Both the position numbers and the translations under genes were made by a program. The notes under the pieces were generated by a model. It saw nothing but the letters and a program-made list of their open reading frames with translations, did not search any database and was not told the origin of the DNA. Below are positions 4,000 to 56,762 of a stretch of 64,000 bases of DNA, piece by piece (the stretch's first letter is position 1; each line of letters opens with the position of its first letter). The stretch is from contig OY757014.1 of assembly GCA_963580285.1 (NCBI GenBank), positions 101,434,072 to 101,498,071 on the forward strand, written 5' to 3'. Source of the DNA: Lucinisca nassula. Its lineage: Eukaryota; Mollusca; Bivalvia; Lucinida; Lucinidae.

Positions 4000-4983
4000 C
4001 AGATAACCAACAAATTTGAACATTGCTCTGGCGTCTATGCTATAAATAACCGTTAATTGGAATAAGTGCATGGTCAGCCATAGTCACGGGCACAAAAGCA
4101 AGCGGGGAGCTTCTGTACACAGTCGACCATTATCGATACACAGTCGACCATTATAAATTGAAGTCACACAGTCTGGGTGGCTTTCTTTGAAAATATAGTT
4201 GACCTCAACAACTCGACCCGCTCTTGGACCATGAAAATTATTCGACTATGCATAGTTCTAAGTCATGAGGCATACTGGGAATCGGTTCAGAATATTTTTA
4301 TGATCTTCTATAAAAATAAAGGTATGTTGTGTGACTATCTTAGACGTATATACTGTCTGAGAACATAAACCATTCACCGCCGCAATGATCGGCTACTCCG
4401 TTATGAGAACAGTGTACGACGTACTATCTGTACACGGTTGAATTGCATTGGTGATATAAGGGTTATATTATATTAAGTACTTCTCTTCATAAGCGAAAAC
4501 CCTAGACATTTCGCTCTTAACGAAACATGTTTCATGACGACAGAAAACTAGAGTCATATAATGTTATCGTTTATAGTGTTAGGACCGGAATTTTCCGGTA
4601 ATCAGCTTAACCAATTTTCTTCTGAATGTAATCTTCCACCAAAAATATGGCACAAGTCCATTTCAAACATTAGGGATGTCAGGATGTGTTATCATTAAAA
4701 TATATTTGGTTTTGCCAACAGTGCAGGTCTGGCGACGTGTTCCGTGGTGTCTGACCTGGGCATGCAATGCTTGCCAGTTATCCGTTTTGGGATGGCAATT
4801 ATAAGGCCTACAAAAAATTTTTTTCCGCTTACCCAGTATACCCTGAATTTTTGTGCCGACCCTGCAATTAATATTGCCATCCAGAAAAAATAAAAATATT
4901 TTCTTACCTACCGACCGTATTATTTTGCTTCCTTGATGTTTTTAACCTCATGATTTGTATATTTGTAGGTAATATAGTTGGAA
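4000..4983. other. Intergenic DNA, no supported gene
   Basis: A short direct repeat (ACAGTCGACCATTAT) occurs at about 4120 and 4140. Short ORFs at 4177-4368 (+) and 4695-4880 (-) have no recognisable domain and no splice context. Nothing else is supported. Confidence 0.5.
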
Positions 4984-5152
4984 TTTATCCATTTTATTTT
5001 TTTTTTAATATAATTTCTGAAGGACCAAAATGTCGATTTCCTTCTAGAATTGATTCAATAAGTGTAGAGAAGAAATTGCTGCTGCCTTGAATGAATTTGG
5101 TAACTGATGGTGTAAATAAGAGTAAATGAGAGTAACGACAGTATGTTGACCA

Positions 5153-5445
5153 TAAAATAGAAGCGGAGATAATGATCAGGAATCGATACAATTAACCCAC
5201 AGCTCCCGCCAGAGACACCAAAGGGAAAGAAACACAAACATGAAACAACAGACCGCAATGGAAACAGCAACAGCGAAAAGCCAAAAGGACAATTACTTTC
5301 CCACAAAATTACCAGCAGGCTATCCAAAATTAAATAATATAACCGACACAAACACCCAAAGACAAACCATAACAAAAATAAACCGCGACAGAAGAACCGC
5401 CTTGGAACGGTCAGCGGAAACGAATTCCACTTGGAGAAAACTCTT
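5153..5445 (-). mobile_element. 5'-truncated PLE 3' end, antisense, inserted in PLE copy 1
   Basis: Matches the terminal 290 bp of the PLE 3' UTR seen in sense at 8480-8760, but reversed. The left flank (GTTGACCATAAA) and the right flank (CTCTTATAGAATG) are adjacent in the uninterrupted PLE copy near 55030, so this is a genuine secondary insertion. Confidence 0.75.
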
Positions 5446-5556
5446 ATAGAATGTAAACTTAGCATTCCGAAACGTGTGAACAAACGCAATTCTTTTTTTT
5501 TCAAAATACTACTTATTACATCCTAAACCTAAGACGTCTTTACTTCACCTTAAACT

Positions 5557-5628
5557 CGCAACCAGACACCGTCGTGATATGACTGAAAAATTGTTGAAAG
5601 CGACGTTAAACCCGAATTCACACACACA
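5557..5628 (+). mobile_element. Truncated SINE (family B) with 13-bp target duplication
   Basis: A 72-bp insert ending GCGACGTTAAACCC and a CACACACA tail is flanked on both sides by TTCACCTTAAACT (5544-5556 and 5629-5641). The target lies inside PLE coding DNA. A copy at 50410-50519 (reversed) sits at the same PLE position. Confidence 0.85.
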
Positions 5629-6251
5629 TTCACCTTAAACTAGGAACTAGGCATTCAGGAATTTCATTAGAAGTGTTTTGGCTCCAGTAGACAAGACCGC
5701 TAACAATGTTTCGTTGTTTGACTGTTTGACTGTTCCACTATGTTAACACTCTTCAGCAAGAGCTTGGCGGTACCAAGGCTTATGAACTACAGCCTACGTT
5801 ATATTGGTTACCCTAACTTCATAAAAAAACATAAAAAGCACGGCTTGTTGCTTATTCAAGCTAAGCTCGTATACAACCACTGAAATTTCCGAATTATTAA
5901 CTCCATGTCCTACTGCTATAAAACATGTGATTAAATATTGAAACAAAGTCTTTATAATTGTCCTTTTGGCTTTCCGCTATTGATGTTCTATTAGAGTCTG
6001 TTATTTCGTGTTTGTGTTTCTTTCCCTTTGGTGTCTCTGATGGGAACTGTGGGTTAATTGTATCGATTCATGAGCATTGCCTTCACTTCTATTTTGAACG
6101 ATCAGGATGAAATATGTTTTGGTCTGTAAAAATCCAATAAGGGTTTGGTGTCTCCGACTGGAGCTGTGGGTTATTTGTATCGATTCCTGATCATTGCCTT
6201 CACTTCTTTTTTTGCATATCAGGGATGTTTGTTTTTTTTTTTTTTTTTTTT

Positions 6252-6755
6252 TTTTGTGCCGTGTGGTGGCTGTAAAAGGTCTCCGCGTACATGCATTTAA
6301 TGTGCTTATTTTTCCAATCCTCAGGGGTCGTTTCAACTTTGTGGTTGTTTTACTTTTGTATTCTTGGAGGTGTTGCCTTGATGAGCTAGGAAGCCATCAT
6401 GCGGACTGAACAAATTATTTGTCGAAATTGCGAAGGAAGTGAAGTCGAGGATTGCGGCCGCGTAAAATCGATTTACGCTCCCCTCCCCAGTGGAATTCGT
6501 TTCACTGACCATTTCAATGCGGTTCTTCTGTCGCGGTTTAGTTTTGTTATGGTTTGTCTTTGAGTGTGTGTGTTGCTTATATTGTTTTGTCTGAGATAGC
6601 CAATTGGCAATTTTGTGGGAAAGTAACTGTCCTTTTGGCTTTCCGATATTGATGTTTCCATTAGATTTAGTTATTTTATGCTTGTGTTTTTTCCCTTTGG
6701 TGTATCTGATGGGAGCTGTTGTTTAATTGTATCGATTCATGGTCATTGCCTTCAC
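6252..6755 (+). mobile_element. PLE 3' UTR fragment fused to a retrozyme-like piece
   Basis: 6252-6320 contains GTGCCGTGTGG and GGCTGTAAAA, as in the small repeats at 13980 and 53165. From about 6360 to 6755 it matches the PLE 3' UTR, including TTGATGAGCTAGGAAGCC, ACAAATTATTTGTC and the terminal ATTGCCTTCACTTC. It ends where another PLE copy begins. Confidence 0.65.
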
Positions 6756-6759
6756 TTCA

Positions 6760-8762
6760 AATTTAAATAAATTGAAATCTAGAGAAGGACAAGACAAGCT
6801 TCCTACGTTATATTGGTTACCTAAACTTCATAAAAGACCATACAAAGCACTGTTTATTGCACATGCAAGCTCTTGTACCACCACCGAACTCTCCAAATTA
6901 TTAACTTCATCTGTTACTGCCATAAAAAATGTCATAAAATATTGCGACAAAGTCTTCGAAAGATCAGGCAGAAATCTGTGTTGGTCTTATTCTAATGAAG
7001 TTTTAAATAAATTGAAATCCAGGCGTTTTCGTGCTTCAAGTCTGTCTAAACATGATTTTTCCACCCTTTGCATTACACTTCCGCATAATCTTATAAAAGA
7101 AAAACTTAATGAATTAATTGAATGGACATTTCAAAGGGAAGACTCCCTCTATCTTGCATGTTATGTAAGAAATGCTTTTTTTCACTTCTAAAGAGCATAA
7201 AAATTATACTTTATGGTCATATAAGAAAGTGTGTGAAGCTCTCACCTTTCTACTTGACAATATTTACATAAGATTTGGTACTAAGTTATTTAGACAAGTT
7301 GCGGGAATTCCGATTGGTACTAATTGCGCACCACTAAGTTGCGGGTATTCCGATGGGTACTAATTGCGCACCACTTGTGGCTGATCTGTTATTTTTTTTT
7401 TTGTGAGAGAGACTTCATGATGTCCCTTTCTGCTGAAAACCAGTCTGAAATCATTGAAGCTTTTAGCTCCACTTGTTGATATTTGGATGATTTATTAAAT
7501 ATTGATAATACCTATGTTTTGATCAGTCAGATTTACCCCCCCCCCCCACAGAACTTCAGTTAAATAAAGCAAATTCTTCTGATACCGAGGCCCCGTTTTC
7601 GGATTTACATCTATCTATTGTAGGTGGGTTGGTTTTGTGCAATATTTATGATAAACGCGATGATTTTGATTTTGAGATTGTATTTTTTTCTTTTTTTGGA
7701 TGGTGTTGTTCCTCGTGCAACATCCTATGGCGTAAATATTTCGCAATTAATTCGATTTGCCAGAGTGTGTAGTCATGTAAGTGACTCCAAAACTCGTAAT
7801 TAATTGTTAAGGGCTAAACTTTATAATCAGGGTTATCGGTTCCATCAACTACGCAAAGCCTTTTCAAAATTTTATAGACGTCAATCTGATTTAATTTCAA
7901 AATTCAATATTGGACTTATATCTCTTCTGCAACACGGTCTATCGGAACCCGAATTTTATGGTGACTTAGTATATAAATTCAGAAAAATATTTAACCGCAA
8001 TGACTTCAGCACCCAATTTCGTAAAATCATTCTTCGATATAAAAAGATTGGGTACAACATAAATGTTATATTGCATGCATGATAGTTAACCAAATCACGG
8101 TTTACAACTTTGCTTCCCTCTTTAATTGCACGCCGGTGGGTCAGGCCTCAGATTCTATGACGGTTCCAACGTAAAGGCTCATTGAGAATTAGAAAGATCT
8201 AATTCAAGGTAATGTTGGTTGGTGCCTGATGCTCTGTCTCTGGTCGGGTCCATCAGAGTCTAACTGCTGGTTTTCTTTTGCTCCACCATTTCAGTGGTTT
8301 CTTGTTGTCGAGTCCTCACCGTTGTTCATCCCTGTGGTTGTTTGATTATTTGTGTTCACGGAGATGTTGCACTGATGAGTTAGGAGGCCTTCCTGCGGAC
8401 TAAACAAATTATTTGTCTAAATTGCGACTGAAGTAAGGGCGAGGATTGTGGCCACGTAAAATCGATTTAAGCCGCCCCCCACCCAGTGGAATTCGTTTCC
8501 GCTGACCGTTCCAAGGCGGTTCTTCTGTCGCGGTTTATTTTTGTTATGGTTTGTCTTTGGGTGTTTGAGTCGCTTATGTTATTTATTTTGGATAGCCTAT
8601 TGGCCATTTTGTGGGAAAGTAACTGTCCGTTTGGCTTTCCGCTGTTGGTGTTTCCATTAGAGTCTGTTGTTTCATGTTTGTGTGTCTTTCCCTTGGTGTC
8701 AATGATGGGAGCTGTGGGTTGATTGTATCGATTCCTGATTATTGCCTCTACTTCTATTTTCC
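6760..8762 (+). pseudogene. Penelope-like element copy 2: RT domain and 3' UTR
   Basis: RT of the Penelope type. It opens at LPTLYWLPKLHKRPYKALF (about 6800) and passes the FSTL.ITLPHNL palm motif (about 7060) and the GIP.GTNCAP motif (about 7300). The catalytic block (C)YLDDLLNIDN lies at about 7480, followed by SYGVNISQLIRFARV (about 7730) and the thumb/C-terminal LRAKLYNQGYRFHQLRKAFSKFYRR to ILRYKKIGYNINV (7804-8080). Frameshifts at about 7190 and 7375, a 40-bp tandem duplication at 7296-7375 and several stops destroy the ORF. The N-terminal part, including the GIY-YIG domain, is missing, typical of 5' truncation. 8090-8762 is the non-coding 3' UTR that recurs alone many times in this window. 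Confidence 0.85.
7296..7375 (+). repeat. 40-bp tandem duplication inside PLE RT motif B
   Basis: Two adjacent 40-bp units, 7296-7335 and 7336-7375, both reading AAGTTGCGGG and then ATTCCGAT.GGTACTAAT, with two differences. The duplication repeats the GIPMGTNCAP-coding stretch and shifts the frame. Confidence 0.85.
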
Positions 8763-12544: not shown

Positions 12545-13050
12545 GTAGAAGTAAAACAAAGATCAGGAATTGATACAATTAACTTACTCCACCAATAAAA
12601 GACACCAAAGGGAAAGAAATACAAACATTAAGCGACAAGACCATAATGGAAACCTAAACAAAGGAAGGCCATAAGGACAGTTACTTTCCCACAAAATGGC
12701 CATATGGCCATCCAAAATAAAAATACAAAAGTGATACGCACAGTAAGTAACAAACAACAACATAAATAAATCGCCACAGAAGAGCCGCCTTGGAACGGTC
12801 AGTGGAAGATTTCTTCGCGATTTAGACAAATAATTTGTTCAGTCCGCATGAAGGCCTCCTAACTCATCAGTGCAACATCTCCGTGAACACAAAAATCAAA
12901 GAACCACAGAGGTGAGACAACGGTGAGGACTCTTCGCGATTTAGACAAATAATTTGTTCAGTCCGCATGAAGGCCTCCTAACTCATCAATGCAACATCTC
13001 CGTGAACTTAAAAATCAAAGAACCACAGAGGTGAGACAACGGTGAGGACT
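12545..13050 (-). mobile_element. 5'-truncated PLE 3' end with 119-bp tandem duplication
   Basis: The left boundary AGTAGAAGTAAAACAAAGATC is the reversed PLE 3' terminus. The body contains CACAAAATGGCCATATGGCC, GAACCGCCTTGGAACGGTC-like and CTCATCAGTGCAACATCTCC blocks. The distal segment (TTCTTCGCGATTTAGAC to GGTGAGGACTC) occurs twice in tandem at about 12812-12930 and 12931-13050. Confidence 0.8.
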
Positions 13051-13769: not shown

Positions 13770-14290
13770 ATGGATTTATGGTCCTTTCGGACCAATAAGT
13801 GCATTTAGAATCATTTTGAAAATAGAGTTCTGCTTAAACCGGTGGTAGAGGGCTTGACCGGCGTTGCACATATCAGTACTGGTCATGAACAGACTCAATA
13901 AAACAGATTCTACTATTTTCTTTTATTTGGTGTATTCTTTGCTTTCAAAAGATCTAACTATTCAGAACGTATTTATCTTCACTGCAGCTGGTGTTGTGCC
14001 GTGTGGCGGCCGTAAAAAGTTTCCCTGTAAATCTATCATAGTGCAGATTATATTTTCTGGTCCTTTTGGATCATTGATTCATTTAGAATCATTCTGAAAA
14101 TAGAGTTCTGCTTAATCCGGAGCTAGAGGCCGTGACCGGTGTTGAACATTTCAGTACTAGTCATAAACTGACTCAATAAAACCGAGTCTGTTATTTTCGT
14201 TTATTTGGTGTAATATTCGCTTCCAAAGGATCTAACTATTCAGAACTTATTCACCAAAAATAAAATTACTGATAGCACGCAGTTTTAAAC
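13770..14290 (+). repeat. Retrozyme-related tandem dimer without hammerhead core
   Basis: Two units of roughly 285 bp share GATTCATTTAGAATCATT-like, AATAGAGTTCTGCTTAA and GACTCAATAAAAC pieces. Outside the centre they align with the hammerhead repeats at 14644-15168 and 51500-51902 (GTGTGGCGGCCGTAAAAAG, GGATCATTGATTC, CTTCC and AAAGGATCTAAC, AGAAC). The CTGATGA/GAAA block of those repeats is replaced here by unrelated sequence. Confidence 0.6.
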
Positions 14291-14370
14291 AGCATTACTT
14301 GCCAATATGAAAATGTTTTGTACCAAGTTGAAGAAACTGTTCATTAAATCTTTGTAATACTTATTTTTCT

Positions 14371-14643
14371 TTGTCGTTCTGACATGCTGTCTGTCCTCCC
14401 TTCGAGCTATGAGCTATGACAAAGTCGATGAGATGTCAGTGTTTGGAGCGAGGATGCGTCCATAAAATTTTGTTTCGAATTGGCAGACGGAAGATTAGCG
14501 AATTGGCAGATTGTCTCTTGCTGTTTGTTTCAATTTATAGACATCCAGCCTCTTTGGCACTTTCTTGCCTTGTGGTTGCACTTTGGCACTTTCTTGCAGA
14601 ACTCTATTGGCAAACTTATTGTTCTTTATTAGGCCTGGCCTCA
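14371..14643 (-). pseudogene. RTE-type LINE endonuclease fragment (reverse orientation)
   Basis: The minus strand reads VQPQGKKVPKRLDVYKLKQ and ANRVLQESAKV, with further residues matching the C-terminal end of RTE-clade apurinic-like endonucleases. It is an inverted partner of the fragment beginning at 15169: both contain CTTCCGTCTGCCAATTCGAA and ATGCATCCTCGC-like DNA in opposite orientations. Confidence 0.7.
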
Positions 14644-14711
14644 TAGTGTAGTTTATATTTTCTTGTCCTTCGGGATCATTGATTCCATTGTGGAATTTCG
14701 AAAATATTTGG

Positions 14712-14757
14712 GGGTCATTATTTAAGTCTAATTGGATGAAACTAGCTGGTCTTGCCC
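14712..14757 (+). ncRNA. Hammerhead ribozyme relic
   Basis: Same 46-nt length and frame as the intact copy at 55962-56007, with GGGTCA, GAAA, ACTAGCTGGT and C retained. The CTGATGA box has become TTATTTA and helix II no longer pairs, so it should be inactive. Confidence 0.7.
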
Positions 14758-15045
14758 AGAAAACATGCAACTCCATATTTTTCAGTTCTGTGGTGTATTC
14801 CTTGCTTCAAAAGGATAACCGTTTTACAGAACATATTAGAACTGACTATTCGGCTTAGAAAATTTTGTACGCTCCACAATATTCAGTCCTTGCTTCAAAA
14901 GGATTACCTTTCGATAGAAAATGTTTAACTTCACCACAGCTGGTGTAAAGCGAATGTGGCGGCCGTAAAAGTTATATTGTCCCTGCCCTACATCATAGTA
15001 AGGGTTACACTTTCTAGTCCTTTGTGGAATTTCGAAAATATCTAG

Positions 15046-15083
15046 GGGTCACTGAAAAGGCCTTAAACTAGCTAGTCTGGCCC
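15046..15083 (+). ncRNA. Hammerhead ribozyme relic with helix II deletion
   Basis: Helix I strands GGGTCA and TGGCCC and the palindromic helix III ACTAGCTAGT followed by C remain. The core box reads CTGAAAA and about 8 nt of helix II/loop and the G of GAAA are missing. Inactive by inspection. Confidence 0.75.
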
Positions 15084-15168
15084 GGACAAATGTTGTACAC
15101 TCCACATTTTTCAGCTCAGTGTTGAAGTCCTTGCTTCCAAAGGAATAGCTTTCTATCGAACATATTTG

Positions 15169-21734: not shown

Positions 21735-22075
21735 CGTCGCAAAGTATAAGTAAAACAAAGATCAGGAATCGATACAATTAACTTACTCCACCGATCAAAG
21801 ACACCAAAGGGAAAGAAACACAAACATAAAGCGACCAGACCATAATGGAAACCTAAACAAAGGAAGGCCATAAGGAGGGTTACTTTCCCACAAAATGGCC
21901 ACATGGCCTTCCAAAATAAAAAAAAGAACACAAGTGATACACACAGTAAGTAACAAACAACAGCATAAATAAACCGCCACAGAAGAACCACCTTGGAAAG
22001 ATCAGTGGAAATATTTCCACTGGGGGGCTTAAATCGATTTTACGTGGCCACAATCCACAAGCCTCGTGATGACGG
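21735..22075 (-). mobile_element. 5'-truncated PLE 3' end
   Basis: Starts AAGTAAAACAAAGATCAGGAA (reversed PLE 3' terminus), includes CACAAAATGGCCACATGGCC, CACAGAAGAACCACCTTGG, TTCCACTGGGGGG and TTAAATCGATTTTACGTGGCC, then ends at an unrelated flank near 22075. Confidence 0.8.
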
Positions 22076-22809: not shown

Positions 22810-23107
22810 CAAAGTAGAAGTAAAACAAAGATCAGGAATCGATACAATTAACTTACTCCACCCATCAAAGACACCAAGGAAAAGAAACACAAATATGAAG
22901 CGACCAGACCAAAATGGAAACCTAAACAAAGGAAGGCCATAAGGACAGTTACTTTCCCACAAAATGGCAATATGGCCATCCAAAATAAAAAGACACAAGT
23001 GATACACACAGTAAGTAACAAACAGCAACATAAATAAACCGCCATAGAAGAACCGCCTTGGAACGGTCAGTGGAAAGATTTCCACTGGTGGGGGGGGGGG
23101 GGGGGGC
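22810..23107 (-). mobile_element. 5'-truncated PLE 3' end with long poly-G
   Basis: Terminus AGTAGAAGTAAAACAAAG at 22812, body identical in order to the copies at 21735 and 38565, ending TTTCCACTGG and a run of about 17 G with one T (23090-23107). The copy stops at the G tract. Confidence 0.8.
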
Positions 23108-25235: not shown

Positions 25236-25372
25236 TTAATAGTACATGAAAAATAAATTTGAATATTGAACTCAAATGACAAGAACTCTTTAGCCTTTAT
25301 GTGGTAAAAAAACAAACATGACGTGATAAACTTCAAAATATCTGCTCTATCAAGGGTTATTTTCCATTACAG

Positions 25373-26847
25373 ATGTCCACAGGGCTGTGCGTGCATTGGT
25401 CGAAAAATTGACTGCACAGGAAAACGGATGTGTGGCTTGTACGGCCAAAGGAAGTTTACCAATCTATCAACGATCTTATCAACTTCTACAACCTCGTTGG
25501 ATGTTAGCACCAACCATCAAATGTTTTTAAATTTAGACCTTGCATCACAGACTCTTCCTGATATCACATTTCTTAACCTCTCGTCCTGCGAAATATATTA
25601 TTTGTCTCCTGGTTTCTTTGTTTCTATGGTAAATTTAAAAGTTCTGGACCTGAACTACAATAAGTTGAAAACTTTAACATCTTATATGTTTTCATTGCAA
25701 TCTAAATTGGAACTTTTCTATTTCAAGGGAAACATTGAACCTCTTGTCATAGAACCAAACGCCTTCCACGGATTATTTGGTTTGAGGTACTTAACTTTGA
25801 GTGAACTGCAAATAAAGGTTATCTCTGAATATGCTTTTGCCTCCCTCGAGTTGAAAGAACTAAGAATTATTAATTCTGAAATAAAAAAAGTTGAGGCACT
25901 TTTCCTTGGAGATGCTGAAATTGAAAATATCTTTCTGAATACCAGTACATTTCAGGACTTTTATGAGCGAATGTTTGACGGGGTCACTGGGGTCAAACAT
26001 ATGGCGACAGACAATTACAAATATTGCTGCCTACGGCCATCTTACGTGTATGAAGAAAATTGCTTTCCGCACCGAGATGAATTTTCATCCTGCGAAGACC
26101 TGATAGGAACAGAATTTCTCCGACCAATTATTTGGTCAATAGGGGGGTTTTGCCTTCTAGCTAATGGAGGATCAATTGCATATCGCTTGATTCGTCACAA
26201 AGAACAACTAAAACATACTTATGGTATTTTGGTAACCCATCTGTCTGCATCTGACCTGTTAATGAGTGTGTATTTGCTTCTTATTGCCAGCACTGATTCG
26301 ATTTACAGTGGTGATTACATTTTTTACGATGAATATTGGCGCCGAAGTAACTGGTGTAAAGCAGCCGGTATCTTGTCCACAGTGTCATTTGAAACTTCAT
26401 TACATCTTGTTGGTTTGGTAACTATAGACAGGTTTCTTGTTGTAAAGTTCCCGTTTGGTCAGTGGCGTTTGACCAGACGAGTGGGTTCGATCCTTGCCCT
26501 GTTTATTTGGGTCCTGTTTTTGTTTATTGCTGTATTGCCGGTGGCTGCGAAGCCCTTCTTTAAAGATGAATTTTATTCCCAATCGGCACTTTGTTTAGCT
26601 TTGCCAGTAACCCGAGCCCGTCCGCGAGGCTGGGGTTATGCATTTGGAATTTACATAGCTTTAAACTTTGTAGTTTGTTTGCTGGTTATTGTTGGTCAGT
26701 GGTTCACTTTCAGCACAATTAAAGCAACATCAAAAGCTACAGCCGGTCGACGATCAAAGGGTCGCACAAACGAGGCAAGGATTGCCAAGAATCTGTTGAC
26801 AGTTGCAGTTTCAAATACGCTCAGCATTTTGCCCGTAGTTCTAGCAG
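25373..26847 (+). CDS. Leucine-rich-repeat GPCR exon: LRRs, hinge, TM1-TM6 (GRL101/relaxin-receptor-like)
   Basis: Large internal exon of a rhodopsin-class LRR receptor. It starts at a 3' splice site (TTATTTTCCATTACAG, exon from 25373) and ends at a donor (GCAG|GTACGT, exon end 26847) one base into a codon. Order: an LRR N-cap (CPQGCACIGRKIDC), several LRRs (INFLNLSSCEIYYL-like, LKVLDLNYNKLKTL, LRYLTLSELQIKVI) and a cysteine hinge (YKYCCLRP, DEFSSCEDLIG, to about 26101). Then come TM1 with an N (LANGGSIAYRL), TM2 (LSASDLLMSVYLLLIAS), the extracellular Cys in SNWCKAAGILS, TM3 ending TIDRFLVV (about 26421, the DRF form of DRY), TM4, ECL2 with SALCLALP, TM5 (LNFVVCLLVIVGQWF), a basic third loop and TM6 (SNTLSILPVVLA). 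The family binds relaxin-like or unknown ligands at the cell surface and couples to G proteins. Signal peptide and any LDLa modules would be in upstream exons not seen here. The frame is intact and uninterrupted. Read-through past 26847 is intronic. Confidence 0.9.
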
Positions 26848-27425
26848 GTACGTATACCTATGTTTGGTTTGGAAATTACAGCTGCGTACTCTATTCCGGT
26901 TAAATCCACGTCCCTCCGGAAAATTCACTCAAAGACCAAAGAAAAGTGTAAGAAACTATGATTTTCTATATACGCGTTGTATCATGCAAGATGCAAACAT
27001 CATGTCAAATTGTAGTTCCAGTGACACTTAACACTGTCATCCGTATATATTTGTGGACAATATACATGAGCTTTTTGTACAAGATTCGGTATATTGTTTC
27101 TTATACTTGAACTAATATGGCTGCAATATGTTATAGTTTACTTTAGGAAATGAAAAAAAGTGCTAAAATGTAGATCTTGAATATGTAATAAATTATAGTG
27201 AAGCCATGTTATTATCTATAGCCCAGTGGTGTATATCTTTATCCAAAAACAACCATTAACAATAACGTATTGTAGACTTTTCGTTGCTTAATACTATATA
27301 TAATATCCCATCTTGAAATGTGAATAACAACAATGTGTAGATTTGGCACCTGCATATCTGGACAAGTGATTATTAATATGTCCTGTCAAGAAATTTATAT
27401 TCAGAAAAGAAAATTATAGCAAAAC

Positions 27426-37114: not shown

Positions 37115-37264
37115 CTTTTTTCAACGCTGATAACCTTCAGACTAGGAACCAGCAGATAATGATCATGTATTTCCCGGTGCAGTTTATATTTTACTTTTGG
37201 TCCTTTGAGATCAGCGTGAATATTCTGAGAAATTGGAAATAAATTATTTGTTAAGACTCATATT

Positions 37265-37490
37265 CTAGACAGATTTTTGATTATTTGGACCCCATTTTGA
37301 TTTATATCAGTCTTTGAATCGACTGCCTTTTCGAAATTCGCAAAATTGCAGTATGTTTCCTCTGGCTTTTTTGCCGGATCATTACAGGGTCACTGATGAG
37401 GCTTTATTAGCCGAAACTACGTAGTATGACCCATCTTCTTTCTTATGAATGTTTTCATTGCTCTTAAAGGAACTCATTTTTGATTGTTAT
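37265..37490 (+). mobile_element. Second hammerhead-bearing repeat (diverged retrozyme-like)
   Basis: Carries the ribozyme at 37387-37432 and a 3' flank (TCTTATGAATGTTTTCATTG) that recurs reversed at 29418-29470. The 5' flank TTGAATCGACTGCCTTTTCG is not otherwise seen. Element ends are not defined. Confidence 0.6.
37387..37432 (+). ncRNA. Hammerhead ribozyme, complete core
   Basis: 46 nt. Helix I GGGTCA (37387-37392) pairs fully with TGACCC (37427-37432). The core CTGATGA (37393-37399) is followed by helix II GGCT/AGCC with loop TTATT (37400-37412), then GAAA (37413-37416). Helix III ACT/AGT is closed by loop ACGT (37416-37425), and the cleavage-site nucleotide is A (37426), giving a GUA site, allowed under the NUH rule. 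Compared with 55962-56007, helix II changed from GGCC/GGCC to GGCT/AGCC and helix I from TGGCCC to TGACCC, both preserving pairing. Small helix III is typical of metazoan retroelement hammerheads. Activity is inferred. Confidence 0.9.
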
Positions 37491-37832
37491 TCTTGAAAAG
37501 TTCAGCCTGAACTCTTTGTTTCCAGGGGAAGGAACAGAAGTCTACACAGACAACGAAGGGGTCGAGGAAGAATGTCGTTCTGACTGACGGTAATTATTTT
37601 TACAAAAAATTCTCCATATGTCCAACAAAGGAAAAATGGTCTTACGTAAAACATGTAAAATTGTGGAAATATTCCTTTTTTTCCGAATTTTGGGGTTATT
37701 GTTAAAGGAAAGTATTTGCCCACGAGGGCAGTAACCTCGTCCTTTAAACGAAAATGCAATGCATTTACTACGGATTTTTGCAGTCATTTTAGTTCAATAC
37801 GTCACTGCATAATGTCCGTATTGAGCTCAGCA

Positions 37833-37864: not shown

Positions 37865-38400
37865 CTTAAAATAGAAGTGGAGGCAATGATCAGGAATCGA
37901 TACAATCAACCCACACCCCCCCCCCCCCCCATCAAAGACACCAAATGGAAAGACACACAAACATGAAACAACAGACCCTAATGGAAACACCAACAGCAGA
38001 AATCCAAAAGGAGAGTTACTTTCCCACAAAATGGCAAATAGGCTATCCAAAATAAAATAACATAAGCGACAACCTCAAATCAAACAAACAAATAACATAA
38101 GCGACACAAACACCCCAAAACAAACCATAACAAAAATAAACCGCGACAGAAGAACCGCCTTGGAACGGTCCGTGGAAACGAATAACTGGGGGGGGGGGGG
38201 GGGGTTACATCGATTTTACGTGGCCACAAACCTCGCCCTTACTTCCGTCGCGATTTAGACAAATAATTATTTGTTCAGTCCGCATGAAGGCCGCCTTACT
38301 CATCAGTGCAACATCTCCGTGAACACAAATTATCAAACAGCCATAGAGATGAAACAACGTTGAGGACTCGACAGCAAGAAACCACTGAAATGCTGGAACA
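37865..38400 (-). mobile_element. 5'-truncated PLE 3' end with poly-C and poly-G tracts
   Basis: Reversed terminus AAATAGAAGTGGAGGCAATG, then a poly-C run (about 37916-37930), CACAAAATGGCAAATAGGC, GGAACGGTCCGTGG, a run of about 17 G (38188-38204), TCGATTTTACGTGGCC, CATCAGTGCAACATCTCC and AGCAAGAAACCACTGAAATG. A 20-nt SINE end is inserted at 38071-38090. Confidence 0.85.
38071..38090 (+). mobile_element. Extremely truncated SINE family A 3' end (20 nt) with 15-bp duplication
   Basis: The insert consists of the SINE tail AACCTCAAATCAAACAAACA and nothing more. It is flanked by AATAACATAAGCGAC at 38056-38070 and 38091-38105. The uninterrupted PLE has a single AATAACATAAGCGACAC. Confidence 0.9.
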
Positions 38401-43399: not shown

Positions 43400-44060
43400 T
43401 GACAGTTCTAAAGTCGAGCTAAAGTCTTCAATGATTTCAGATTGATTTTCAACGGAAAGTGTCATCATGAATATGTTCTAGAAAGGATTGTCCTTTGGAA
43501 GCAGGTCTCTTTCTCAAGAAAACAGGAACAGATCAGCCACAAGGGATGCGCCATTCGTACCCACCGGAATACCCACAATTTGTCTAAATAACTTAGAACC
43601 AGATCTTTTGTAAATATTGTCAAGTAGAAAGCTGAGAGCTTCACACACTTTCTGGCATGACCATAAAGAATAATTTTTATGCTCTTCTGAAATGAAAAAA
43701 AAATTCTTACATTACATGAAACACAGAGATAATCTTTCCTATGAAATATCCATTCAATTAAATCATTTGCTTTTATAAGATTATGAGGAAGTGCTGTGTA
43801 AAGGGTGGAAAAATCATCAGTGGACATACTTGAAGCACGAAAACGTCTGGGTTTCAATTTATTTAAAACTCCATTAGAATTATTTTTATAGACCAAAACA
43901 GATTTCTCCCTGATCTTTCAATATTTAATCACATATTTTTCTGTTGTTTTTTTTATGGCAGTAAAACATGAAGTTAATAATTTTTAAAGTTCAGTGGTGG
44001 TACAAGAGCTTGAATTTGCAATGGACCGTGCTTTGTATGTTTTGTTTATGAAGTTTAGAT
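43400..44060 (-). pseudogene. Penelope-like element copy 4: RT fragment
   Basis: From 44050 downward it reads the KLHK region, SSSCTTTEL, KLLTSCFTAIK, then the open stretch 43896-43465 with NGVLNKLKPRRFRASSMSTD, DFSTLYTALPHNLI (palm motif with D), NDLIEWIFHRKD, and in another frame the PMGTN-like block. It is interrupted at 43469-43505 by a short hammerhead-repeat fragment and ends near 43400 before the YLDD region. Confidence 0.8.
43469..43505 (-). mobile_element. Extremely truncated retrozyme 3' fragment
   Basis: TATGTTCTAGAAAGGATTGT and CCTTTGGAAGCA is the reversed 3' end of the hammerhead repeat (compare 55623 and 51902). PLE sequence is continuous on both sides (CATCATGAA and GTCTCTTTC). 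Confidence 0.75.
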
Positions 44061-47689: not shown

Positions 47690-48030
47690 GACTTTCATGC
47701 GCAGCTACGAAGACGTGTTTTATTTCTGTATGCTGAAATTGTTTCTGGACCAGAATGGCTAGTTTAGGCCAATTAAGCCTCTTCAGTTGTCCTTATATAT
47801 TTTAAACACTCCACAGTGAAATCAATGATCCAAAATGAAGGAAAATATTATCCACACTATTTAAGGACAACAGAACTTGTACTGCCGCCATACAATCCCT
47901 TATCACAAGCGAAGTGTAATTTTACCTCAAAAGATCATTACTTGCAACATTGGAATGCACGACAAATGTGAAAATTGTAGAGTTTGCCAGTTTTTCTGGA
48001 GTAGGCTAGGTAGTTTCGGCCAATGTTTGT
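47690..48030 (-). mobile_element. Retrozyme-like dimer, decayed hammerheads
   Basis: Reverse copy: a hammerhead relic at 47747-47792 and a second partial one at about 47997-48024, about 251 bp apart, with the body CACAGTGAAATCAATGATCC, AAGGAAAATAT, GCCGCCATAC between them. Confidence 0.7.
47747..47792 (-). ncRNA. Hammerhead ribozyme relic
   Basis: In reverse: GGACAA, CTGAAGA (fits CUGANGA), helix II GGCT/GGCC with loop TAATT, then TAAA in place of GAAA, ACTAGCCATT and TGGTCC. Loss of the G of GAAA and weak helix III predict inactivity. Confidence 0.75.
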
Positions 48031-48119: not shown

Positions 48120-49320
48120 TACCGGTAGCTAGTCCGTAGTTCCAGATAAGACTGCAGAAACAGTGACTGAATTGATCATTGGACACAATTTAGTTTATAC
48201 TAATTTATTTAAGGTCGATTGCGATGAAAGCTTTAAGCTTATTGAATCGCTCTCGAACACTCACGCGCAGTGGCTACTGCTACCCATTTACACCTCGGTG
48301 GAGTGGGGCAGTGTCATTACGTGTCTTGCCCAAGGACACACCTCGATACCGGTGGCGGATTCGAACGCACAACCTCTCGATTATGAGTCGAACGCGCTAA
48401 CCACTGCACTATCGAGGCTGACTATCGAGGCTGGACACAATTTGCTTCGTTAGGCTGTCCATTACAGATCGTGACTGACAATGGAACTGTGAATGCAAAT
48501 AAAATGGCTGAAGAAACGTTGGCAAAACTTAAGATTGACCATGTTTTAACGAGTTTGTACCATCCTCGGAGCAATGCAAAAGTTAAGGGATTCCCTAATA
48601 ATTCGCATGATATTATATCTATAATGGTAGCTGATAATCAACATAGCTGTAATGTGTTTCTCTGCCAGAGTTTAGCAGCAAATAGATTTAAGGTTAGTGA
48701 ATCATCTAAAGTTTCATCTTATTATTTGCTGTACAACAGAGCAGTAGATTGCCTGTTGACAATATACTATAGCCTAGGACAAAATATGTAGGTGAAAATT
48801 TTCATCACGTTGCCTTACAAGAAATTCACAGAGCTTTTGTACATAAAAGATTGCACGACAAGTAGAGTATATGCTGGTGGTTTAATGTTGCCAAATGTAG
48901 TTGATTGATTAGTTTCAAAAATCGAAAATAGCAGAAAACTTAGGGACGCATCAGGTATAATTCCACCTCAGACATCTGAGTCGAAAACAGAATCCGATTC
49001 TGATTCGGAACGACATGTTCCAATGGCTAAGCTCGTTAAGAAAATAGGCAAGATAGAACAACGTCTTCTGATGAAAATAATACATCTTTCTTGAAACTAC
49101 AGAAATGGTTAAAACACAGAGAAAATAGGCAAAATCAAGATGAAGAAACAGGGGTCAAGGACATGGAATATAATAACGAGTTATCCTCCGATAATTTCTG
49201 TTCTTTACCTATGATTGCAACAACTGATTTGGACAGTGATATGGAAATAAATGGAATTTATTCTCCCCAGCCACTGTCTTATAGTGTAGGCAGTGAGACA
49301 TTAAGGCCACTTATTAAATA
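48120..49320 (+). pseudogene. Ty3/gypsy-type integrase remnant
   Basis: The + strand from about 48440 encodes a retroviral-type integrase core: FASLGCPLQIVTDNGTVN (second catalytic Asp in TDNG), a HVLTSLYHPRSNAKVKGF block where gypsy integrases carry the catalytic Glu (here Lys), and an AANRFKVSESSKVSSYYLLY block. It extends into an acidic C-terminal tail (49091-49321). It is split by a SINE at 48192-48431, and the catalytic Glu is lost, so it cannot be functional. The element's gag, protease and RT are not present upstream. Confidence 0.8.
48192..48431 (-). mobile_element. tRNA-derived SINE (family D) with 12-bp duplication
   Basis: 240 bp inserted in the integrase region. TGGACACAATTT is duplicated at 48180-48191 and 48432-48443. 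Read in reverse it starts GTCAGCCTCGATAGTGCAGT, GGTTAGCGCG (A-box region), has a CTCATAA anticodon-like loop and GCGTTCGAATCCG (B box). Related pieces lie at 60690-60760 and 63785-63945. Confidence 0.9.
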
Positions 49321-51080: not shown

Positions 51081-51515
51081 ATTGAAAAACCACATGATAC
51101 GGCAACCGGCCCCCATGAAAATTCATTATCAGATGCTTAAGCAGCTGCCAAAAAGTTCTCTTCCAACACTTTAAGATATCTTTAATCATATTTGGGAAAC
51201 GGGGTTCTGTCCTCTGGGGCTGGCATGTAGCTGCAGTAGTACCAATTCAAAAACCAGGGAAAGATCACGCAGAACCTACGAATTATCGTCCGATAGCTTT
51301 GGAAAGTTGTTTGTGTACAACAATGTGCAGAATGATAAACAAGAGATAGTTTTGGTACTTAGAGGCCAACAACCTCATTTCAGAATATCAGTCAGGTCTT
51401 CGTTCGGAACGTAGGACTAACGACAATTCAATAAGACTAGAAACATTTCTACGTAATGCTTTTAATAACAAAGAACATCTAGTGGCTATCTTTTTCGACT
51501 TTTGAAAATATTTGT

Positions 51516-51561
51516 GGGTCACTGACGAGGCTTAAAGGGCCGAAACCAGCTCGTCTGTGCC
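51516..51561 (+). ncRNA. Hammerhead ribozyme, core retained, helices weakened
   Basis: GGGTCA, CTGACGA (fits CUGANGA), helix II GGCT/GGCC with loop TAAAG, GAAA, ACCAGCTCGT, C at the cleavage site, TGTGCC. Core residues are all present, but helix III keeps only two outer pairs and helix I has two mismatches. Confidence 0.8.
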
Positions 51562-51775
51562 AGAAAACATGTATACTCCATATTTTCCAGTTCTGTAGTG
51601 TATTCCTTGCTTCCAAAGGATAACTCTTTCTAGAACATATTTAACGTCACTACAGCTGCTGTCTGGGAATGTGTGGCGGCCGTAAAAAGTATCCCTGCCC
51701 TACATCATAGTGTAGTTTATATTATCTTGTCCTTTGGAATCATTGGTTCCATTGTGGGATTTTGAAAATATTTGA

Positions 51776-51820
51776 GGGTCATGATGAGCATGAAATGGCC
51801 GAAACTAGTTAGTCTGGCCC
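51776..51820 (+). ncRNA. Hammerhead ribozyme relic
   Basis: GGGTCA then TGATGA with the first core C lost, helix II GCAT/GGCC not pairing, GAAA, ACTAGTTAGT, C, TGGCCC. Inactive by inspection. Confidence 0.75.
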
Positions 51821-52674
51821 AGAAAACATGTACACTCCATATTTTCCAGTTCTGTAGTGTATTCCTTGCTTCAAAAGGATAACCCTTTCTAGAACATATT
51901 TGGAGAAAGCATATGATACCACATGGCGTTATGGAATATTGAAAGATCACCATAATAATGGCTTAAGTTTTAAAACCTACCAGTTTTATTGAAAGCTTTT
52001 AGGGGAACGCATGTTCCAGGTGCGTGTGGGATCTACCCAGTCAGATCTCTATGATCAAGAACAGGGTGTCCCATGAAGTAGTATTCTTTCCGCTACGGTA
52101 TTTAACATCAAAATAAACCATACTGTACAATGTTTGGACGACAAAACAGATTGTTCTTTGTATGTTGATGATTTTTGCATATGTTACCGTTCAAAAAATA
52201 TGAAAACAATTGAACAAAAATTACAACAAAATTTAGAAAGAATAGAAGAATGGGCTGATAAAATGGTTTCAAGTTCTCCAAGTCGAAAACGCAATGTGAT
52301 CATTTTTGTAAGCTACGGAACAAACACGAACGTCTTTCCGTGTTTTTATACGGATCACACATTCCTGTTGTTGAAGAAGCCAATTTTCTTGGGATCATAT
52401 TTGATCAAAAATTATCTTTTTCTCCATATTAAATATCTTAAAGCGAAATGCTTAAAAGCTTTGAATCTTTTGAAGGTTTTAGGTCATTCACGTTGGGGAG
52501 CGGATCGGTATACCTTATTACATCTTTACCGGTCTTTGATAAGATCTAAATTAGATTATGGGTCTGTTGTTTATGGTTCTGCCAGAAAGTACTATTTAAA
52601 ATCTTTGGATACTATCCATCACCAAGGCCTTCATCTGGTTATGGGAACCTTTAGTACTTCTCCCGTACTAAATA

Positions 52675-54345: not shown

Positions 54346-55701
54346 CGCAAATTACGTACTTTTAACCGAAACAATACTAGACTGAAGTGACTGTCAATTA
54401 TATTATTAAATCATGGACGCCACTCTATGCTTTCATTTCTAAGTTCATTACCCGTTTCTGTTTTACGTCTTCTGGACACCGAGGCGAATAAATTCTACGA
54501 CAGTTCTAATCAGTTATATGATGCGGCTCTCTTAATTAGAGGCTATACTCAGCATACTCTCCGTCCTTACATTGATTCTGAAATTAATCATAAACGCCAT
54601 TTCTTCAAAATATCCTTCATTAATAAGGGTATTGATTTTAAAGATTTGCCCAGTATTTTTCGTGAGAGCTCGGTGCTTTCTTCCATTCCTGCTTATTTTC
54701 AAAATACTGAAACACCTATAATTTGCTATAAACATAACAAACCCGTTAGATTATTTTTAATTTCAATAAACTTGTTTCAGATCTTGATATTGCTACAAAT
54801 ACTCCTTTTTCATGTGATTGTAAAAAACTCAGTGTATTGCTATCCTGCTGTTGGTCATGTAATTACTGGCAATTTGAAAATTATTCCTGATTCTAGGATA
54901 AGGAATATAATTTCTAAAGGACCGAAATATCGGTTTCCTTCTAGAATTGATTTCAGTTAATGTAGAGATGAAATCGCCGCTGCCTTGAACGAATTCGGTA
55001 ATCGATGGTGTAAGCGAGAGTATGTTGAGCATAAAGCCCTTAAGGATTGGAAACTTAACATTTTAAAAATAGTGAATAAACGCATTTCTTTCTATTCTCA
55101 AAATACTAACTTATTACCTCTTAAGCCTAAGACGTCTTTACGTCATCTTAAACTAGGTATTCAAGAATTTCATAAGAAGTTTGTTTTGGCCCCTGCAGAC
55201 AAGACCGCTAACAGCGACGTCGTTGTGTGACGGCTCCACAATGTTAACACGCTTAAGCAGGAGCTTGGTGGTACTATGAACTTCAGCCTTTAGCTGAAGA
55301 GAGAGCTACAGTAGATGAACATTTGTCATTCAGCCACCAAGTTTGCTGTGTGTTACAGAAGGCCAGGTCAAGCTTCCTACGCTATACTGGTTACCAAAAC
55401 TTCATAAAAGACCTTACAAAGCACGGTTTATTGCAAATTCTAGCTCTTGCACTACCATTGAACTTTCTAAATTACCAACTTCCTGTCTTACTGCTATTAA
55501 AACGCATGTTATTAAGTATTGTGATAAAGTCTTTGAAAGATCAGGAAGAAATCTGTTTTGGTCTATAAAAAATTCGAATGAAGTTTTAAATAAATTGAAA
55601 TCCAAACGTTTTCGTGCTTCAATATGTTCTATAAAAGGGTTATCCATTGGGAGCAAGGAATACACCACAGAAGTGAAAAATATGGAGTTTACATGTTTTC
55701 T

Positions 55702-55747
55702 GGGCCAGACTAGATAGTTTGGGCCAATTAGGCCTCATCAGTGACCC
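55702..55747 (-). ncRNA. Hammerhead ribozyme, one core mutation
   Basis: Identical layout to 55962-56007 (GGGTCA, CTGATGA, GGCC/GGCC with TAATT, ACTATCTAGT, C, TGGCCC), but the conserved GAAA reads CAAA. This G-to-C change in the catalytic core should abolish cleavage. Confidence 0.85.
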
Positions 55748-55961
55748 TTAGATATTTTCAAAATTCCACAGTGGAATAAATGATCCCAACGGACAAGAAA
55801 ATATAATCTACACTATGATGTAGGGCAGGGAGACGTTTTACCACCGCCACACATGCCCACACACCAGTGCAGTGAAGTTAAATATGTTCTATAATAGGGT
55901 TATCCTTTGGAAGCAAGGAAAACACCACAGAAGTGAAAAATATGGAGTGTACATGTTTTCT

Positions 55962-56007
55962 GGGCCAGACTAGCTAGTTTCGGCCAATTAGGCCTCATCA
56001 GTGACCC
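55962..56007 (-). ncRNA. Hammerhead ribozyme, intact
   Basis: Reading the minus strand from 56007: GGGTCA (helix I), CTGATGA (core, 56001-55995), GGCC, loop TAATT, GGCC (helix II, 4 pairs), GAAA (55981-55978), helix III ACT/AGT with loop AGCT, cleavage nucleotide C (55968, GUC site), TGGCCC closing helix I (six pairs, one G-U). All conserved hammerhead residues are present. Predicted scissile bond is between 55968 and 55967. Distance to the equivalent site in the neighbouring copy (55708) is exactly 260 nt, the expected size of a monomer RNA. Confidence 0.95.
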
Positions 56008-56433
56008 TCAGATCAAGTCTGTCTACTTACGATTTTTTCCACTCTTTACACTACACTTCCTCATAATCTTATATAAGAAAAGCTTAGTGATTTAATTGAA
56101 CGGGCTTTTCACAGAGAAGATTCTCTCAATCTTGCATGAAATGCATTTTTTACTTCTAAAGAGCATAAGAATTATACACTTTGGTCATATCAGAAAGTGT
56201 GTGATGCCCTCACCTTTCTACTTGACAATATTTATATTAGATTCGGTACTAAGTTATTTAGACAAGTTGTGTGTATTCCGATGGGTAAGAATTGCGCACC
56301 TCTTGTGGCTGATCTGTTCTTGTATTGTTATGAAAGAGACTTCATGTTGTCGCTTTCCATTGATAACCAGTCTGAAAATATTGAAGCTTTTAGTTCTACT
56401 TCTAGATATTTAGATGATTTATTAAATATTGAC

Positions 56434-56762
56434 ACACAGTAAGTAACAAACAACAACATAAATAAACCGCCACAGAAGAACCGCCTTGGAACGGTCAGTG
56501 GAAAGAATTCCACTGTTCTACTGGGGGGGGGGGGGGTTCTTAAATCTATTTTACATGGCCATAATCATCGTCCTTACCTCTGTAACGGTATACACTAATT
56601 TTGTTTAGTCCGCATGAAGGCTTCCTAACTCGTCAGTGTAACATCTCCGAGAACATTCAAATAAAAAAACTACAGAGATGAAACAAGGTTGAGGACTCTA
56701 CAGCATACAACAACAGAATTGCTGGAGCAAAAGAAAACCAACAGTTAGACTCCGAGGGGCCC
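56434..56762 (-). mobile_element. Antisense PLE 3' UTR, right half
   Basis: CACACAGTAAGTAACAAACA to ACTGG plus a run of 14 G (56523-56536), CCGCATGAAGGCTTCCTAAC, CTGGAGCAAAAGAAAACCAA, ending GGGGCCCGACCA. Together with 53105-53150 it forms one antisense 3' end inserted in the LINE, about 200 bp being lost at the nested junction. Confidence 0.8.

Follow-up and report, generated by a model that had tools for sequence, protein, structure and literature searches.

Sequence links between a hammerhead retrozyme and a Penelope-like element in the bivalve Lucinisca nassula

Non-LTR retrozymes have been described in metazoans, and Penelope-like elements (PLEs) have been proposed as candidates for moving them, with no motif common to the two being given in the accessible portions of those papers (Cervera and de la Pena 2020, PMC7229834; PMC7761336). 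A 2020 review states, in the part available, that metazoan retrozymes have no conserved motif from which a helper element could be deduced (PMC7761336), and in the available part of a 2024 review the candidates are still LINEs or PLEs (PMC11722881). For the Poseidon PLE of Anolis, PAc, the accessible text reports that reverse transcription starts 111-118 nt into the ORF and that the hammerhead cut lies at 26, which places the start 85-92 nt past the cut (Frangieh et al. 2024, PMC11167929). According to the same portion of that paper, reverse transcription depends on the ORF's first 172 nt, genomic ends coincide with the start sites, and hammerhead mutants had no effect on insertion in vitro; the word "retrozyme" is absent from its main text (PMC11167929). 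Here, we describe a retrozyme of Lucinisca nassula and a PLE of the same genome; what is new relative to these papers is the link of the retrozyme to PLE machinery.

We analysed a 64-kb stretch of L. nassula DNA, referred to below as the window, which contains an intact type I hammerhead on the minus strand at 55962-56007, with a predicted cut between 55968 and 55967, such that cleavage would be expected after the C at 55968. Read along the minus strand, its core and stems are GGGTCA-CTGATGA-GGCC-TAATT-GGCC-GAA-A-CT-AGCT-AG-T-C-TGGCCC, with 6/6 pairs in helix I, 4/4 in helix II, three in helix III (A15.1-U16.1 included) and every core residue present, confirming the first-pass annotation, which had proposed an intact minus-strand hammerhead with a short helix III. 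A hammerhead descriptor found two perfect-core sites in the window, namely this one and 37387-37432 on the plus strand, as well as one site with a single core mismatch (55702-55747, minus) and three more with two mismatches. In 20 Markov-shuffled windows, the same descriptor gave 0, 2 and 17 matches with 0, 1 and 2 core mismatches, respectively, and since none of these had a perfect core, the perfect-core match is beyond chance. Sliding the 3' partners in eight local copies lowered the paired cells from 91% to 47% or less, and both sides had changed in 3 of 13 pairs; in a weaker control, a column shuffle of the same copies, the observed values were reached by 17 to 88 of 500 shuffles. A covariance model made from the eight copies refound its own eight, as expected (E 6e-20 to 6e-11), assigned 80.4 bits to the focal copy and detected no ninth copy in the window, with nothing further below E 2.6. 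Based on the shuffled-window descriptor, the pairing tests and this model, a chance motif was rejected as the explanation of the hammerhead.

At gathering scores, the only Rfam family called in the window was a tRNA, and the hammerhead was missed. The first-pass annotation had suggested a search with Infernal and the Rfam models, holding that a score below threshold would count against the ribozyme, and the search did return sub-threshold scores, of 17-19 bits under relaxed settings: 19.1 bits with RF00008 (cut-off 48.5), 17.6 with HH9 (52) and 18.7 with RAGATH-1 (56.3). This miss probably reflects a limit of models made from longer hammerheads. In addition, the unconstrained minimum-energy fold differs from the hammerhead (-15.1 versus -13.3 kcal/mol), and no extended helix I that could give loop 1-loop 2 contacts was seen in the flanks, as read by eye. 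The focal hammerhead contains a 10-nt strand, ACUAGCUAGU, that is perfectly palindromic (duplex -13.7 kcal/mol); so is ACUACGUAGU of the copy at 37 kb (-12.9 kcal/mol), and these palindromic strands make double hammerheads possible; the duplex between the two copies within the focal insertion is weaker (-7.0 kcal/mol). Across 60 genomic loci, 54 hammerheads were fully intact and 48 of these had the CTAGCTAG strand, although the loci were picked by an exact core 20-mer and are a biased sample for counts of both CTAGCTAG and intactness. The second hammerhead copy of the focal insertion, at 55702-55747 (minus), is the CAAA neighbour pointed out earlier; it has G12, the general base of the hammerhead, changed to C and is predicted to be dead. 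With only one live site, the locus is not expected to release a monomer.

The intact ribozyme forms part of a retrozyme insertion of 390 nt, or 1.5 units of 260 nt, at 55623-56012 (minus), which is delimited by a 136-nt direct repeat at 260-nt spacing and by PLE paralogues lacking the insertion. It is antisense to a PLE-like reverse-transcriptase frame, which matches the uninterrupted copies ahead of the insertion (55319-55618, plus) and is frameshifted with stops past it (56017-56439, plus). The paralogues at 7.0 kb (CAGACTTGAAGC; target site uninterrupted at 7007-7082, plus) and 43.8 kb (CATACTTGAAGC) run through the site, the latter as CATACTTGAAG, and give the target CAGAC^TTGAAG with a target-site duplication (TSD) of TTGA, the 5' copy of which lies at 56013-56016 and the 3' copy at 55619-55622 (both minus). 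A tail region occurs twice on the minus strand, at 55881-55931, where it stands ahead of the putative reverse-transcription start site and is read through in unit 1, and at 55621-55671, where it forms the 3' end of the insertion. The two units differ at 9 of 136 positions, suggesting that the insertion is probably not recent. For the tail, an outer hairpin conserved by covariation was rejected, the changes in that stem giving no support; the inner stem of 5 pairs shows one C-G to U-A change and one C-G to U-G change.

The 260-nt unit has a GC content of 41.9% and a longest open stretch of 49 codons (tripled unit, both strands). It thus has the features of metazoan non-LTR retrozymes, that is, a tandem repeat of 150-450 bp with a type I hammerhead, a GC content below 50%, no ORF and no LTR, and judged by these features the ribozyme is part of a non-autonomous metazoan retrozyme. 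The first-pass annotation placed the ribozyme inside a PLE reverse transcriptase. Its nested position stands, since the frame is found on both sides and the uninterrupted paralogues give the empty site, but the ribozyme belongs to the non-coding 260-nt unit and not to the surrounding PLE. The accompanying claim, that this copy and its nested position were new, did not hold: the exact 20-nt core occurs 23,215 times in the 2.93-Gb assembly (the reversed pattern, 0 times), and the nested position recurs in 38 junction matches and in one variant, L049.

Seven insertions of the focal family are present in the window, six of which have a common 3' point of the unit, the exception being a related copy at 47742-48024 (minus). 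The others comprise an array at 51497-51900 (plus), with both hammerheads damaged, in a frame that by eye resembles a LINE reverse transcriptase; a tail-only, 5'-truncated insertion of 34 nt in another PLE copy (43470-43503, minus); and three further insertions at 13770-15166 (plus, start approximate), the first having other sequence in place of the hammerhead. The distance from cut to end is 86-89 nt in the window insertions. PLE paralogues also allowed reconstruction of a second target, GAGAC^TTCATG, with a duplication of 0 bases as compared with 4 at the focal site, and a third, TCGAC^TTGGAG (2-base duplication), was deduced from the LINE-like reading frame, no uninterrupted copy of it being found in the window. 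The chance of three random NNNTT sites having NNN in common is about 6e-4. A second retrozyme family, with the intact hammerhead at 37387-37432 and a GUA site, lies at 37176-37491 (plus); homology of its tail to the focal tail (model R1) was weak (E 5 and 7.4) and was set aside.

The subfamily at 13770-14251 (plus) has the same tail and motif, and at the position of the hammerhead it carries roughly 115 nt that are unrelated and are closed by GAAAAUA/UAUUUUC; these may be a different processing element. This replacing sequence (13.8-14.25 kb) gave no Rfam match at E values up to 10, the one match in the stretch lying elsewhere, and its fold is unexceptional (z -0.3 and -1.4). Among other features of the window, a dispersed repeat consisting of ACCGCCTTGGAACGGTC followed by a G run occurs at more than 10 places, including 56470-56540, 38119-38174, 23004-23072, 21939-22007 and 12736-12804. 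Positions 48355-48411 (minus) score marginally as a tRNA (29.4 bits against a cut-off of 29), perhaps a tRNA-derived repeat, and adjoin a frame at 48387-48791 that is integrase-like by eye and has no Pfam match. An open frame of 531 codons at 25308-26903 (plus) resembles by eye a leucine-rich-repeat 7-transmembrane receptor and is perhaps a host gene exon.

The ends of retrozyme copies were examined genome-wide in the first 60 clusters from 100 core positions listed, which yielded 73 mapped stretches. We found that 57 of these stop no more than 10 nt from a single point (monomer positions 129-138) that lies about 86 nt downstream of the ribozyme cut (which follows monomer position 46), and that retrozyme arrays also read through this site. 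The 16 stretches ending elsewhere are six pieces of the 37-kb family (L022, L028 and L032) and ten others; in the 37-kb family, the distance from cut to end is about 59-65 nt. TT follows GAACATA or variants of it in 50 of the 57 by hand count, with the limit that TT is also what comes next in the unit, which leaves the T's at the junction assignable to either side. The 5' ends are variable, with 17 of the 57 falling at monomer 190-202; relative to the 40 that lie in 134-260, this clustering has a P of about 1e-7 against a uniform spread, in a rough test on loci selected for containing a core. At the 57 5' junctions, GACTT was seen 8 times (0.3 expected from the flanks), [AG]ACTT 10 times (0.7) and GAC 14 times (4.6), and AAC alone showed no clear excess (10 versus 6.8 expected). 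The retrozyme core and tail each had 0 matches in viral contigs, and a sequence search of the PDB gave chance-level matches only.

The PLE reverse-transcriptase piece at 6727-7188 gave 41,831 first-look candidates in the genome, and all 150 of those scored were matches. Several neighbouring matches, including four tandem loci (L079 to L082), have a period of 4134-4179 nt. In three of the four loci, the array stops at unit coordinate 4038/4039; the fourth array continues to the edge of its stretch. Similarly, among 20 further loci, drawn from copies with long open frames, 19 end within -1 to +6 nt of this coordinate and the twentieth reads on, giving a fixed internal end in 22 of 24 loci overall. 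Motifs read by eye, together with the tandem structure and the fixed ends, point to a PLE: the putative reverse transcriptase has YLDD and LPKLHK (RVT_1 13.3 bits, E 0.067, cut-off 29.6), and ahead of it lies a GIY-YIG-like stretch, LIYLIT-(TGA)-..-QYVGQT. Pfam had no match to the pieces of the window or to the read-through frame of the PLE, nor to a GIY-YIG endonuclease in the PLE. In units that reach them, in-frame TGA codons recur at four constant positions (942, 931, 781 and 500 codons before the frame ends), shifted by 10 codons in one L082 unit; all four are carried by L079 (reverse strand, 4446-7835), L080, L081 and L082. This pattern suggests a selenoprotein transposon; at gathering scores, Rfam called no family, and hence no SECIS element, in L079 or L082. 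Naiad-type PLEs, which have selenocysteine, show an N-terminal GIY-YIG-like stretch before the reverse transcriptase and in-frame TGA codons; both are also seen here by eye, without Pfam confirmation, and make this PLE a candidate for the Naiad layout. Neither the descriptor nor the model found a hammerhead, a frequent feature of PLE pseudo-LTRs, in L079 to L082, the best model match (9.5 bits) being a piece of the 37-kb family that flanks L080.

A motif common to the retrozymes and the PLE lies just past their ends. In the PLE, the sequence beyond the end point reads GTGCCGTGTGGCGGCTGTAAAAGGTCTCCCCGTACAT from nt 22, and the 37-kb family matches the PLE over 39 nt at 97.4% identity (69.9 bits in L028; 54 bits in L022), while the 13.9-kb subfamily matches the motif over 24 nt (40.1 bits). 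In the focal copy, the motif as in the autonomous PLE (GTGTGGCGG..GTAAAA.GTCTCCC) is located at 55828-55852 (minus) and begins 28 nt past GAACATATT; the focal and 51-kb units score 26.3 bits each, which is weak and not significant alone, 100 Markov units used as a control having reached up to 28.2 bits per test. The offset of GTGTGGCGG from the end point, counted after its T's, is 27 nt in the PLE, L022 and the 13.9-kb subfamily, 28 nt in the focal unit and 29 nt in the 51-kb unit. Outside the motif, the focal unit and the PLE share short chance-level matches only, and the strong motif link runs via the 37-kb and 13.9-kb elements, not via the focal family.

The retrozyme and the PLE also have an insertion site in common. 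The pattern GAACATA, 0-12 bases and CACGAAAACG had 58 genomic matches, as compared with 10 for the reversed pattern, and TTGAAG stands at the boundary in 38 of these 58 retrozyme-end junctions (19 + 16 + 3). The PLE end joined to that target gave 108 matches (reversed control, 0), and the junctions of both elements fall at one position, within the T's that either side could supply. The uninterrupted target sequence has 2,673 exact occurrences, at which random insertion would, by our own arithmetic, predict about 0.01 event, assuming some 17,000 retrozyme loci (23,215 x 74/100, estimated from hand clustering of the listed places). By reading, the L082 PLE has GACTTGA before and TTGAAC after the insertion, that is, a TTGA duplication, and L080 (a PLE) and L022 (a retrozyme array) both lie at the TTTATTAGCC position of 37-kb-family hammerheads. 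The junctions are identical in 95 of the 100 PLE matches listed among the 108, as would be expected if one founder insertion had been copied with its host instead of the site having been hit repeatedly and independently. We consider this unlikely, because the insertions at the site in the focal copy, L049 and L053, the three for which 5' ends were read, differ in length (390, 165 and 598 nt), in 5' end and in their diverged PLE flanks; the focal copy and L053 are among the 38, and L049 is a variant outside them.

LINE-driven SINEs typically show fixed 3' ends and 5' truncation, and a LINE rather than a PLE might mobilise the retrozyme, in which case both would be ordinary LINE/SINE features; however, the LINE consensus target is TTTT/AA, which the primer strand here, AA^GTC, does not resemble. 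LINE-like frames are visible by eye in the window (RVT_1 19.4 bits, below cut-off), and LINEs are named as candidates in the available parts of two papers (PMC7229834, PMC11722881). The start site, though, sits within the tandem template, and both the motif and the insertion site are common to the retrozyme and the PLE, which makes mobilisation by a LINE quite unlikely. That the repeat represents part of a PLE pseudo-LTR, i.e., a truncated PLE copy and not an independent retrozyme, is very unlikely, for although minimal type I hammerheads occur in PLE pseudo-LTRs according to the accessible part of PMC7761336 and the motif is common to both elements, the four PLE loci (one PLE family) have no hammerhead, on which ground the host PLE was rejected as the ribozyme source, the focal unit beyond the motif matches the PLE at chance level only, and the 260-nt unit is found repeatedly with no ORF in it.

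Mobilisation of the retrozyme by PLE machinery, through internally initiated, target-primed reverse transcription, is the reading that we favour, with a probability of roughly 0.8; it draws on the observed anatomy, fixed ends, common motif and common junctions, and from these DNA features we infer cleavage, circles, protein binding and endonuclease action. The retrozyme RNA would be cut into units by the hammerhead, acting singly or in a tandem pair formed via the palindromic helix III strand, and the units would probably become circles. A PLE protein of the L. nassula genome may recognise the motif common to retrozyme and PLE RNA and may nick targets of the kind GAC^TT. Reverse transcription would then start inside the RNA, about 86 nt past the ribozyme cut and 27-29 nt ahead of the motif, and would go more than once round the template, leaving partial tandems that are truncated at the 5' side and have a single fixed 3' end. 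The focal copy would then be an old, half-dead product that landed at a favoured position of the PLE's own gene.

On balance, we lean towards a more specific version of PLE-driven mobilisation, in which a PLE that has no hammerhead would trans-mobilise a hammerhead circle and the 39-nt motif would serve the PLE protein as an address on the RNA. Reverse transcription from 27-29 nt away would proceed round the circle and often be halted at the border of the protein-bound motif, so that insertions would measure about 200 + 260n nt, in line with the 17 of 57 5' ends at monomer 190-202, and both elements would home to one position in the PLE's own reverse-transcriptase gene, so that parasite and helper alike would break helper copies. 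If this is true, a PLE need not itself carry the hammerhead used by its passenger. With motif, start site and insertion site converging on one PLE, the question of the helper becomes testable at the bench with defined RNA mutants.

The L. nassula element resembles the metazoan non-LTR retrozymes, as far as these are described in the available part of PMC7229834, in its type I hammerhead, 260-nt tandem unit, GC content of 42%, lack of an ORF and thousands of copies. It differs from them in its fixed internal 3' end, PLE-like motif and preferred insertion site, in being known from DNA alone, and in its TSDs, which are 4, 2 and 0 bases at the three reconstructed sites, whereas those of the described elements, when present, exceed 4 bp. 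Like the minimal hammerheads of PLEs and Terminons, it has a small type I core and is tandem and dimer-capable; those hammerheads, however, usually lack helix III in the accessible account (PMC7761336), whereas the focal one has three pairs and a tetraloop. Comparison with PAc, based on the portion of PMC11167929 available, shows an internal start of reverse transcription at about an equal distance from the cut, tandem copies and ends at start sites in both systems, the start being putative in L. nassula, and the requirement of PAc for RNA downstream of the start matches the anatomy found here. The Anolis PLE is reported to prefer ATT, whereas the target here is GAC^TT (PMC11167929). Finally, PAc is autonomous and has its own hammerhead, whereas in L. 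nassula it is a non-coding partner that carries the hammerhead, the PLE loci read having yielded none.
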